From: Phytohabitans rumicis | Lineage (GTDB): Bacteria > Actinomycetota > Actinomycetes > Mycobacteriales > Micromonosporaceae | Assembly (NCBI RefSeq): GCF_011764445.1 | Contig: NZ_BLPG01000001.1 | Location: forward strand, 4,402,001-4,466,000 | Direction of reading: 5' to 3' | Length of the DNA: 64,000 nucleotides | Shown: piece by piece, positions 20,242-23,011 of the stretch | Position numbering within the stretch: position 1 is the first letter of the stretch | Layout of the letters: every line of letters begins with the position of its first letter | Position numbers and translations under genes: made by a program | Notes under the pieces: model-generated | What the model saw: only the letters and a program-made list of their open reading frames with translations | Database searches by the model: none | What the model was told of the DNA's origin: nothing

Positions 20242-21048
20242 ATGACTACTAGCTACCTGGATCGCGGCGAGGGTCGCATCGCGTACGACGTGCAGGGCGA
20301 AGGCCCGCTGGTGGTGTGCGTGCCCGGCATGGGTGACCTGCGGTCGAACTACCGTTTCACCGTCCCGGCGCTGGTAGCGGCCGGCTACCGCGTCGCCACC
20401 ATGGACCTGCGCGGGCACGGCGACAGCGACGACGGCTTCGGCGCGTACGACGACGTCGCGCTCGCGTCCGACATCCTCGCGCTGATCGCGCACCTCGGCG
20501 GCCCGGCGCTCGTACTGGGCAACTCGATGGGCGCCGGCGCGGCCGTCATCGCCGCGAGCGACGACCCCGCCGCCGTGGCCGGGCTCGGCCTGCTCGGCCC
20601 GTTCGTGCGCAACCCCAAGGTGAACCCGCTCCTGCTGCTCGTCATGCGGGTGATGCTGGTGAAGCCGTGGGGCCCGGCCGCGTGGAAGGCGTACTACAAG
20701 ACGCTCTACCCGGGCCGCCGCCCCGCCGACCTGGCCGCGCACGTGGACCGCGTCGCAGGGAGCCTGGCGCGGGGCGGCCACTGGCGCTCGTTCGTGCGGA
20801 CCACCCGGACCAGCCACGCGCCGGCTGAGGCCCGGCTGGACGGCGTACGGTCGCCGGCGATCGTGGTCATGGGCGAGAAGGACCCCGACTTTCCCGACCC
20901 GGCGGCCGAGGCGCGCTTCGCCGGCGAACGCCTGAGCGGCGAGGTCGTGCTGGTGCCCGACTCCGGCCACTACCCCATGGCAGACTCACCAGACGTGGTC
21001 AACCCCGCACTGATCGCCTTCGCCGGCAAGGTATTCGACCGTGCCTAG
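20242..21048 (+). CDS. Alpha/beta hydrolase
   Basis: A 268-residue alpha/beta-hydrolase. The oxyanion strand is VVCVPGMGDLRSNYRF, the nucleophile elbow is LVLGNSMGAGAA with Ser, a candidate acid lies in IVVMGEKDPDF, and the catalytic His is in VLVPDSGHYPMADSPD. The cap region between is hydrophobic (NPLLLLVMRVMLVKPWG). No signal peptide. The ATG at 20242 is chosen because the promoter is placed for a leaderless start exactly there. The 3' end overlaps the start of the TetR gene by eight bases, so the two form one operon. The substrate is unknown; esters or lactones are typical. Confidence 0.9.
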   Translation: MTTSYLDRGEGRIAYDVQGEGPLVVCVPGMGDLRSNYRFTVPALVAAGYRVATMDLRGHGDSDDGFGAYDDVALASDILALIAHLGGPALVLGNSMGAGAAVIAASDDPAAVAGLGLLGPFVRNPKVNPLLLLVMRVMLVKPWGPAAWKAYYKTLYPGRRPADLAAHVDRVAGSLARGGHWRSFVRTTRTSHAPAEARLDGVRSPAIVVMGEKDPDFPDPAAEARFAGERLSGEVVLVPDSGHYPMADSPDVVNPALIAFAGKVFDRA

Positions 21049-21649
21049 GGCCGGCCTGACACCCACCATCGTGGTGGAAGAGGCGGCCAAGCTCGCCGAC
21101 GAGGTCGGCCTGGAACGCCTCACCCTCGCCGCCGTCGCGCAGAAGCTGGGCGTCGCGCTGCCCAGCCTGTACAAGCACATCCGGGGACTGGGCGCACTCC
21201 AGCAGAGCCTCGCCGTACGCGCCCTCACCGAGATCACGGCGGCCCTGTCCGCCGCCGCGATCGGCCGTTCCGGACGGCAGGCCCTGGTCGCGATGGCCAC
21301 CGCCTACCGGTCGTACGCCCACGCCCATCCCGGCCGGTACGCGGCGACCCTGCGCGCGGCCGACCCGAACGACCCCGACCACGTCGCGGCCGGCGAAGCC
21401 GCGGTGGGCGTCATCTACGCGGTGCTCGCCGGGTACGGGCTGACCGGCCCGGCCGCGATAGACGCGACCCGGTGCCTGCGCAGCGCGCTGCACGGATTCG
21501 TGGCGCTGGAGGCGGCCGGCGGGTTCGGGCTTCCCCAAGACGTCGACCGCTCGTACGACCGCCTGGTGGGCGCCCTGGACAACGCCTTCACCACCTGGCC
21601 GTCGGATCCCCCGCCCCTCGTCGATCAAGGGCGAACGGCCGTGCTTTGA
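21041..21649 (+). CDS. TetR family regulator (WHG-type C-terminal domain)
   Basis: A 202-residue TetR regulator beginning at the GTG at 21041 inside the end of the hydrolase gene. The helix-turn-helix is IVVEEAAKLADEVGLERLTLAAVAQKLGVALPSLYKHIRGLGAL. The C-terminal domain resembles the WHG type (YRSYAHAHPGRYAAT...CLRSALHGFVALEAAGGFGLP). The last residues (LVDQGRTAVL) and the stop come from a palindromic repeat (21619-21683), so the ancestral C-terminus was probably different. It is likely autoregulatory through the operator at 20217-20233. Confidence 0.88.
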   Translation: MPRAGLTPTIVVEEAAKLADEVGLERLTLAAVAQKLGVALPSLYKHIRGLGALQQSLAVRALTEITAALSAAAIGRSGRQALVAMATAYRSYAHAHPGRYAATLRAADPNDPDHVAAGEAAVGVIYAVLAGYGLTGPAAIDATRCLRSALHGFVALEAAGGFGLPQDVDRSYDRLVGALDNAFTTWPSDPPPLVDQGRTAVL

Positions 21650-21683
21650 TCTCCGATCCACGACCGTTCGCCCTTGATCGACG
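21619..21683. repeat. Palindromic repeat family A, copy 3, inside the tetR 3' end
   Basis: A 65-base palindrome with arms CGTCGATCAAGGGCGAACGG.../...CCGTTCGCCCTTGATCGACG and centre TTTGATCTCCGATCC. Compared with copy 1, CATATG in the left arm is CGAACG here and the right arm changes to match (CGTATG to CGTTCG), so pairing is conserved. The tetR stop codon lies in its loop. Confidence 0.8.
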
Positions 21684-21741
21684 AAAAGGGGCGAGACGAG
21701 CCACGACGGGGTGTCTTATGTGGGCGATGCTCGGGGGGTGG

Positions 21742-21814
21742 TGGAGCCGAGGGGACTTGAACCCCTAACCCCTGCCTTGCAAAGGCAGTGCTCTGCCAGT
21801 TGAGCTACGGCCCC
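21742..21814 (-). tRNA. tRNA-Ala (anticodon TGC)
   Basis: A 73-base cloverleaf on the minus strand. The acceptor GGGGCCG pairs with CGGCTCC (one G-U), the anticodon loop is CTTTGCAAG, and the T-arm is GGGGTTCAAGTCCCC. Discriminator A is present; CCA is not encoded. It is the usual partner of tRNA-Ile downstream of gyrA in actinobacteria. Confidence 0.95.
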
Positions 21815-21842
21815 GCTGGCGGCGGAGCCGCCGTCGGATTGG

Positions 21843-21971
21843 CTACCGAAGGTCGGGCGCGGTCGTGGCCTCGTGCCACAGCGCGCGCTCGTCGTTGGAT
21901 TCCTTGACCTTCTTGGCGATCAGGGCGGCCGCACCGATCACGCCGGCGATGATAAGGATCTTCTTCCACAT
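21843..21971 (-). CDS. DLW-39 family small protein
   Basis: A 42-residue protein. The N-terminal half is a hydrophobic helix (MWKKILIIAGVIGAAALIAKK) followed by KVKESNDERALWHEATTAPDLR. Length, layout and position between tRNA-Ile and tRNA-Ala downstream of gyrA match the conserved actinobacterial DLW-39 small membrane protein family, whose function is unknown; this copy ends in DLR rather than DLW. The ATG at 21971 begins one base after the discriminator base of tRNA-Ile, so there is no room for a 5' leader except the tRNA itself. An internal GTG at codon 11 would cut the helix and is less likely. Confidence 0.85.
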   Translation of the reverse strand: MWKKILIIAGVIGAAALIAKKVKESNDERALWHEATTAPDLR

Positions 21972-21972
21972 G

Positions 21973-22046
21973 TGGGGCTAGATGGAATCGAACCATCGAC
22001 CTCAGAGTTATCAGCTCTGCGCTCTAACCGACTGAGCTATAGCCCC
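21973..22046 (-). tRNA. tRNA-Ile (anticodon GAT)
   Basis: A 74-base cloverleaf on the minus strand. The acceptor GGGGCTA pairs perfectly with TAGCCCC, the anticodon loop is CTGATAACT, and the T-arm is TGGTTCGATTCCA. CCA is not encoded; the base after the discriminator is C, followed immediately by the ATG of the DLW-39 gene. Confidence 0.95.
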
Positions 22047-22132
22047 CCGTGCGACCGGGCAAGGTTACCGTACGCGGGAAGCTACTCCCAAGTCGGGGCG
22101 CCCGGCGTGGCGGACGCCCCGAGGGATGCGCG

Positions 22133-23011
22133 TCAGTCCCGCTCGGCCAGCGTGAGCTCGACGCCGCCGACCAAGTCGGCGCAGACGTTGTAGATGAACG
22201 CGCCGAGGGTGGCGAGGGCCGTGAAGAGCACCACGTTGACCGCCCCGATCAGGGCCGAGGTGCCGATGACGCCCTTGGCGGTGATCCGGAAGGTGCTCGC
22301 GGTCTCGCCGCCGCCGGCGTTGACCAGGTCGGCCAGGCTGCTGTTGACGCTCTCGAACACGCCCATGGCGTCGAGCGCCAGGTAGAGCACCGAGGTGGCG
22401 ACAATCACCACGATGAAGAGCACCAGCGACACCGCGAACGAGAACTTCATCACGGACCACGGGTCGATGCGCTTGACGTTGAGCTTGGCTCGCCGCGGCC
22501 CGCGCGACGCAGCCGATGCCACGGTGCTCCGCGCTGTCCGGACCGCCTCGCCGACCCGGGCCGCGCCCACCGCGGCCGCGCCTACGCCGACGGTACGCAC
22601 CGAGGCGCCCCCTGCGGCGACCCGGCCGGTCCCCGTGGCGGCTCCTGGCCTACCGGCGGCTCCCGGCGGCATGGCCGGCGCGGGCGCTGCCGCCGGCGGC
22701 CCCGGTGTCACCACGGCCGTTGCCCCGACGGGCGGCGCGCTGACGGGCGCCTTTCCGGACACCACCGGTGCGGTGGCGGCCGCCGCTGGCGGTGCCGCTC
22801 CGTCCGGCGTGGGCCCGCCCGCCGGCGCCTGATCGGGCGGCGGCGGCATGCCGGGAGCCCGAGTGAACTTCGGGGACGGCGTATCGGCGGGGACTGCCGC
22901 CCGGCCCACAACCGCGCGGCCGGTCGCCGGTGTGCCGCTCGCGGCGGCCTCCTCTTCGACCGGGTTGGTCGAGGTCCCCGCAGCCCCCGACTTCGCCTGT
23001 GTCTCCGTCAT
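22133..23011 (-). CDS. DUF3566 membrane protein downstream of gyrA
   Basis: A 292-residue protein. The first ~170 residues are Pro/Ala/Gly-rich and disordered, cytoplasmic by the basic residues that precede the membrane. The DUF3566 domain follows: AKLNVKRIDPWSVMKFSFAVSLVLFIVVIVATSVLYLAL (first helix), an external loop with a possible amphipathic helix, and a second helix IGAVNVVLFTALATLGAFIYNV, ending ELTLAERD. This family sits after gyrA in many actinobacteria (the Rv0007 position in M. tuberculosis) and its role is not established. The ATG at 23011 lies three bases past the gyrA stop, so the genes are probably co-transcribed. Confidence 0.88.
   Translation of the reverse strand: MTETQAKSGAAGTSTNPVEEEAAASGTPATGRAVVGRAAVPADTPSPKFTRAPGMPPPPDQAPAGGPTPDGAAPPAAAATAPVVSGKAPVSAPPVGATAVVTPGPPAAAPAPAMPPGAAGRPGAATGTGRVAAGGASVRTVGVGAAAVGAARVGEAVRTARSTVASAASRGPRRAKLNVKRIDPWSVMKFSFAVSLVLFIVVIVATSVLYLALDAMGVFESVNSSLADLVNAGGGETASTFRITAKGVIGTSALIGAVNVVLFTALATLGAFIYNVCADLVGGVELTLAERD

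Follow-up and report, generated by a model that had tools for sequence, protein, structure and literature searches.

A one-base junction between tRNA-Ile and the DLW-39 gene in actinobacteria, and its possible role in forming a leaderless mRNA

Background

In mitochondria, tRNA excision yields the ends of mRNAs, an arrangement known as tRNA punctuation. The locus described here, from Phytohabitans rumicis, resembles it in that the ends of the message would be produced by tRNA excision, the 5' end of the message would coincide with the start codon or adjoin it, and no Shine-Dalgarno (SD) sequence is present. It differs by its location on a bacterial chromosome, by the single small gene lying between two tRNAs and by the partial CCA (C74) that is encoded.

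Leaderless mRNAs described in actinobacteria carry AUG or GUG at or near their 5' end and lack an SD (PMC4681348, PMC3848588), characters shared with the start proposed here. In P. acnes, 68% of them start with AUG and 29% with GUG (PMC3848588). As presented in these two reports, they were mapped from transcription starts, unlike the present case, in which processing would make the end.

The same reports describe tRNA 3' ends. In S. coelicolor, cuts were mapped between C74 and C75 for most of 12 CCA-encoding tRNAs, while several CCA-less tRNAs are cut "within a few nucleotides downstream" (PMC4681348). Cuts between the Cs were also mapped in P. acnes, in which a number of CCA-encoding tRNAs are cleaved past the CCA; according to the authors there is no obvious tRNase Z homologue, and the cutting enzyme was left open (PMC3848588). 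Both studies consider that the CCA-adding enzyme could repair the cut end (PMC4681348, PMC3848588). This is probably the same endonuclease step as that proposed here, although the sections of the two reports dealing with these cuts treat them as tRNA maturation, unlinked to a downstream mRNA (PMC3848588, PMC4681348).

The gene concerned belongs to the NF038356 (DLW-39) family. It shares with most sampled loci having an upstream tRNA-Ile the tRNA-Ile/tRNA-Ala neighbourhood but, unlike most sampled members, which possess a leader, it has none. Among titles and abstract openings of the open-licence PMC literature, we recognised no description of a tRNA-made leaderless mRNA in bacteria, which is no proof of absence.

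Results and discussion

Organization of the locus

The window is the whole stretch of 64,000 nucleotides that was analysed (contig NZ_BLPG01000001.1, positions 4,402,001 to 4,466,000). On its minus strand, gyrA, a DUF3566 membrane-protein gene, tRNA-Ile(GAT), DLW-39 and tRNA-Ala(TGC) follow each other in this order. The relevant features, all on the minus strand, are:

23014-22133, minus: DUF3566 membrane protein gene, adjoining gyrA (PF12089, 5.7e-43)
22091-22086 and 22067-22062, minus: TTGGGA and TAACCT, separated by 18 nt, putative promoter of the tRNA-Ile/DLW-39/tRNA-Ala unit (by-eye reading of the genus alignment)
22046-21973, minus: tRNA-Ile(GAT), positions 1-73 (Rfam RF00005, 77.9 bits; ARAGORN)
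21973, minus: discriminator A
21972, minus: C74, first residue of a partial CCA; favoured cut between 21972 and 21971 (site suggested by papers on two other actinobacteria)
21971-21843, minus: DLW-39 family gene, 42 aa, no leader (ATG 21971-21969; NF038356 and ORF)
21842-21815, minus: 28-nt spacer from the DLW-39 stop to tRNA-Ala; mRNA 3' end presumably near 21815
21814-21739, minus: tRNA-Ala(TGC) with encoded CCA at 21741-21739 (ARAGORN; RF00005, 69.7 bits, 21742-21814)

The initial annotation had read the discriminator of tRNA-Ile at 21973, then one C, then the ATG of a 42-residue DLW-39 gene; this reading is borne out by ARAGORN, RF00005, NF038356 and the ORF. The tRNA, bounded at 22046-21972 by ARAGORN and at 22046-21973 by Rfam, is CCA-less and includes C74 only. 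The DLW-39 frame abuts it on the 5' side (one base, C74), and tRNA-Ala, 28 nt past the stop, bounds the 3' side. The ORF matches NF038356 with 58.5 bits (cut-off 24) over profile positions 1-38 of 38 and is the only match in the window genome. The in-frame codons 5' of the ATG are TAG-CCC-CAC. The TAG lies inside the tRNA-Ile acceptor stem, three codons upstream, and therefore no translation start is available farther upstream. Since the sole alternative in-frame ATG, GTG or TTG of the ORF is a GTG at codon 11, ATG 21971 is the predicted DLW-39 start, provided that the gene is translated.

An Rfam Plastid-ycf2 match antisense to tRNA-Ile (48.3 bits) was discarded because it falls below the gathering threshold (65.7). 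The window also contains an inverted repeat at 21618-21684 (26-nt arms, 96% complementary, 15-nt gap), located at the end of the plus-strand frame 21041-21649 and before tRNA-Ala. It is perhaps a bidirectional terminator.

Spacing between tRNA-Ile and the DLW-39 start

The distance from discriminator to start was determined in 285 distinct tRNA-Ile/DLW-39 sequences, one of which has no assigned start. Left aside were 80 rows with no upstream tRNA in the available stretch (many from families f91, f92, f93 and f4, the gene not lying close behind a tRNA or the contig ending), 16 in which the DLW-39 match was weak or absent and 2 with another tRNA; the tRNA-only loci L351-L410 stand outside this count. 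The start lies exactly 1 nt past the discriminator in 52 of the 285 sequences, a proportion which is no prevalence because the set was deliberately enriched for families where the junction had already been seen. Three of these 52 (L214, L216 and L217) are known through the junction pattern search alone, and families f104 and f105 were searched because the pattern pointed there.

Spacings of 0, 2-4 and 6-16 nt are absent under either of the two start rules used. With the nearest-start rule, the other spacings below 23 nt are 5 (one sequence), 17 (two), 20 (two), 21 (one) and 22 nt (one); with the ATG-preferred rule, they are 5 (two) and 17 nt (one). The remaining sequences show at least 17 nt, most of them with an SD. 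L462, with a 5-nt gap and no SD, belongs to f88, a family that also includes 1-nt genomes. L446 has a spacing of 5 or 20 according to the rule, and GGAGG precedes its GTG at 20.

An SD core of at least 4 bases precedes the start in 0/52 sequences of the 1-nt group (15 nt were examined in these loci), in 2/7 of those with 2-22 nt and in 170/225 of those with at least 23 nt. For looser SD motifs, the corresponding values are 1/52, 2/7 and 213/225. Because of this gap in the spacings and these SD counts, two main states can be recognised: either the start sits at +1 and lacks an SD, or it is distant enough to accommodate one. In the 1-nt group, 28 sequences start with ATG and 24 with GTG. A probability of 1.4e-10 calculated for the spacing pattern (a single spacing out of 16 in 9 of 10 lineages) was set aside, since the calculation assumed that the ten lineages are independent and all spacings equally likely.

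The initial annotation had also held that neither a separate promoter nor an SD fits between tRNA-Ile and the gene. A consensus scan for a sigma-70-like promoter or a terminator found none in 21700-22600, and none of the 52 leaderless-form loci (0/52) has a -10-like TANNNT whose end lies 4-12 nt 5' of the start codon. The TTGGGA-18-TAACCT stretch upstream of tRNA-Ile, missed by the consensus scan, is largely retained in the alignment of the genus and may correspond to the promoter of the tRNA-Ile/DLW-39/tRNA-Ala unit.

Distribution and recurrence

DLW-39 was found in 6/6 genomes of the genus, 116/121 of the family and 267/394 of the class (261 above the curated cut-off). A phylum-wide sample gave a match in 33/396 genomes, 23 of them above the cut-off. 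Within the genus, the window species and one congener (G057) share the CCCCA-C-ATG junction, and the other four species have gaps of 49, 49, 100 and 176 nt. These four (L062-L065) possess a common leader stretch, GAAGGGGAT(N)ACCCC, before the ATG, capable of forming a GGGG/CCCC hairpin that would cover the SD. As this leader is common to the four other congeners, the window form is most simply regarded as derived, by leader loss, and kept in two species. As to whether one deletion is common to the two leaderless-form congeners (L001 and L066), constraining them together gave an AU p value of 0.096.

At the level of the class, the exact DNA pattern (junction plus two basic codons) occurs in 18/394 genomes, and the reversed control was zero in every listed cell. 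The 1-nt form is present in 20 genera of six GTDB families (four genera in f1, one each in f7, f88 and f99, four in f104 and nine in f105). Counted as distinct sequences, it represents 7/7 in f104, 27/36 in f105, 11/94 in f1, 3/6 in f88, 1/2 in f99 and 1/11 in f7, as well as 2/47 named records without family code (D. vinaceum and a groundwater MAG). DLW-39 itself is carried by 7/11 f104 genomes, all seven with the 1-nt form, and by 44/59 f105 genomes, of which 28 have the 1-nt form, 9 a longer gap and 7 no tRNA in the available stretch. Universality of the 1-nt form within f1, the family of Micromonospora and Dactylosporangium, was rejected, since a leader is present in most of the Micromonosporaceae sampled (11/94, above).

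A tree of DUF3566 and GyrA comprising 129 rows, 30 of the 1-nt form and 99 others, requires a minimum of 12 state changes; it is a quick tree, which leaves 49 of its 126 inner forks open and does not separate gain from loss. These changes, and an earlier 89-row FastTree in which the leaderless-form rows are scattered, speak against a single origin of the whole pattern. We place the 1-nt junction in several separate lineages, and no exact number is claimed. The initial annotation had regarded a long gap between the genes in relatives as an argument against its proposal. On this point the outcome is mixed: most relatives sampled show a gap of at least 17 nt, which counts against it, and lineages apart from one another repeat the C-RTG junction exactly, which counts in its favour. 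From these comparisons, the phenomenon appears wider and more recurrent than the initial annotation could see.

On the 3' side, the next tRNA is tRNA-Ala in 49/52 of the 1-nt loci (spacer quartiles 19.5, 48 and 71 nt, maximum 1410), the other three having no tRNA within the 2, 59 and 291 nt available past the stop, and in 207/232 of the remaining loci.

Two Dactylosporangium loci (L086:3911-4480 and L088:3938-4410) carry an insertion of several hundred bases between an intact tRNA-Ile and DLW-39. In both, a truncated tRNA 3' end resembling an integration scar is still joined to C-ATG, and a promoter-like stretch common to the two lies upstream. They are most simply interpreted as a leaderless-form junction that was split later.

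Probable position of the tRNA 3' cut

C74 is encoded in 64/66 tRNA calls of the window genome and in 43/43 of the distant f105 genome G671, the two genomes in which all tRNAs were considered (Rfam tRNA counts are 63 and 43, respectively). The complete CCA is encoded in only 16/66 and 8/43. C74 is also present in 207/207 distinct tRNA-Ile loci upstream of DLW-39 and in 243/243 distinct tRNA-Ala loci. Since C74 is nearly universal in the tRNAs considered and cuts between the Cs are published for two actinobacteria, we favour a cut after C74, which would also account for the spacing of 1; the mRNA would then begin at the AUG or GUG itself. The initial annotation had proposed that tRNA-Ile 3' processing may create the leaderless DLW-39 mRNA. 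This is supported in part: the leaderless reading agrees well with the comparisons, the exact cut is probably one base away from the site it assumed, and the enzyme it named is doubtful.

The distribution of RNase Z was examined with the TIGR02651 profile in 18 chosen genomes, several of those without a clear match being drafts. Full-length matches (around 1e-80) were obtained in the window genome (E 3.3e-81), G057, G077, G022 and the f4 genome G453; G031 gave a match in two pieces, and G064, from the Dactylosporangium group, a fragment with a stop plus weaker matches. The curated cut-off of the profile was reached by no match, clear ones included. Ten leaderless-form genomes showed weak or partial matches only, the best at 9.2e-20: five from f105 (G671, G714, G638, G609 and G723), the f104 genomes G554 and G835, and G649, G833 and G616. 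G656, an f105 genome with a leader, behaves in the same way. These weak matches are similar in size to that of a second protein of the window genome. Because of these ten genomes, dependence on a canonical RNase Z in every lineage seems doubtful.

Proposed mechanism and alternatives

We propose that a promoter lying immediately 5' of tRNA-Ile would drive a single transcript of tRNA-Ile, DLW-39 and tRNA-Ala. This precursor would be cut after C74 by the actinobacterial tRNA 3' endonuclease, and C75-A76 would then be added to the tRNA by the CCA-adding enzyme. The downstream product, with a 5' monophosphate, would begin exactly at the DLW-39 AUG (or GUG), and the RNase P cut at the 5' end of tRNA-Ala would set its 3' end. 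The resulting RNA, some 157 nt long (21971-21815), would undergo leaderless translation. By analogy with mitochondria, tRNA excision probably punctuates this transcript. The sequences establish the junction, its recurrence, the missing SD, the near-universal C74 of the tRNAs considered and purifying selection on the protein; we infer co-transcription, the cut site, the 5'-phosphate state and leaderless translation. Taken as a whole, the scheme seems to us rather probable, and its leaderless component appears well supported by comparison. A leader is kept in most relatives sampled, which counts against any need for the arrangement; tRNA-made leaderlessness is therefore not required for the DLW-39 protein. 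Also on the opposing side are the 5-nt gap without SD in L462, the split junctions of the two Dactylosporangium loci, in which the gene survives, the cuts past the CCA in P. acnes and the looser location of cuts in CCA-less tRNAs of S. coelicolor, tRNA-Ile of the window being CCA-less.

The nearest alternative differs by one base. RNase Z, which usually cuts after the discriminator (PMC10673834), would leave a C-AUG message with one extra 5' base, and such a 1-nt leader would still qualify as leaderless in the S. coelicolor study, where leaders below 10 nt are so counted (PMC4681348). The full-length RNase Z match of the window genome, G057, G077, G022 and G453 is compatible with it. A cut at this position nevertheless gives no clear reason for C74 being near-universal while C75-A76 is mostly not encoded, and spacings of 2-4 nt should then be about as good as 1, yet none was seen. 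The weak or partial matches of the ten leaderless-form genomes and the fragment of G064 also argue against it, with the reservation that several of these are drafts and the gene may be missing from the assembly. We consider this version unlikely. Alternatively, a promoter inside tRNA-Ile might produce an independent leaderless transcript whose first base is the A or G of the start codon. Parallels would be the leaderless transcripts from primary starts that are common in actinobacteria (PMC4681348, PMC3848588, PMC4633059). Such a promoter agrees poorly with the TANNNT count and the negative scan of the window, and a tRNA sequence is presumably not easily tunable as a promoter, which makes this origin quite improbable.

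Direct precedence of the start codon by a tRNA in 52 loci might also mean that an uncut or partly cut transcript is translated, the tRNA fold serving as a ribosome-entry or spacing element. This would hardly predict a spacing of exactly one base, none of these loci has an SD core before the start, and we hold it to be very improbable. Finally, the leader present in four congeners and missing in the window could have been deleted, leaving DLW-39 as an untranslated relic. The frame is intact in all 52 of the 1-nt loci measured. Between the window gene and that of its leaderless-form congener there are 13 nucleotide and 5/42 residue differences (dN 0.054, dS 0.32), and dN/dS is about 0.02 to 0.31 in 12/12 pairwise comparisons, nine of which involve two leaderless-form genes. 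The DLW-39 protein is under purifying selection, and a relic is the least probable of the explanations considered.

If the proposed cut after C74 is correct, bacteria would possess an equivalent of the tRNA punctuation of mitochondria, acquired repeatedly by a single gene, and tRNA 3' maturation would control how much of a small membrane protein is made. The junction also gives a sequence-level argument that actinobacterial tRNAs are cut after C74, and could be used as a simple reporter for finding the cutting enzyme.

Other candidate junctions

Frames of at least 40 aa at +1 follow 5/66 tRNA calls in the window genome and 3/43 in G671. In the window genome (L360:1501-1956, contig C1, about 4816134), tRNA-Thr(TGT) is followed by C and the ATG of a 126-aa frame. 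This frame encodes a membrane protein with a DUF1232 match (E 9.1e-12) and high third-position GC; besides DLW-39, it is another candidate for a leaderless mRNA made by tRNA excision. In G671 (L401:1501-2094), tRNA-Ala(CGC) is followed by C and the ATG of a 172-aa secreted-looking frame, which has no Pfam match and an in-frame GTG 48 nt farther on. Four others of these +1 frames look like chance occurrences, and the start of several probable genes lies at a different distance from the tRNA. A general actinobacterial tRNA punctuation, in which the endonuclease leaves C74 and a start codon at position 75 yields a leaderless mRNA on maturation, can be put forward only tentatively, as somewhat less probable than its converse; it would have been repeatedly adopted by DLW-39 and used by other genes (DUF1232 here), tying their expression to tRNA maturation.

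A small RNA of S. coelicolor, scr3871(u-), may be the DLW-39 message, as we presume from how the f4 locus L034 is arranged and from the gene order of S. coelicolor. This RNA, located upstream of SCO3871 on the opposite strand, is northern-confirmed and apparently processed (PMC4681348).

The window genome also includes a cluster of 18 tRNA matches in 3.7 kb (contig C1, 8887457-8891174), many of them lower-scoring and one a second tRNA-Ile(GAT), which is possibly a mobile-element tRNA array.
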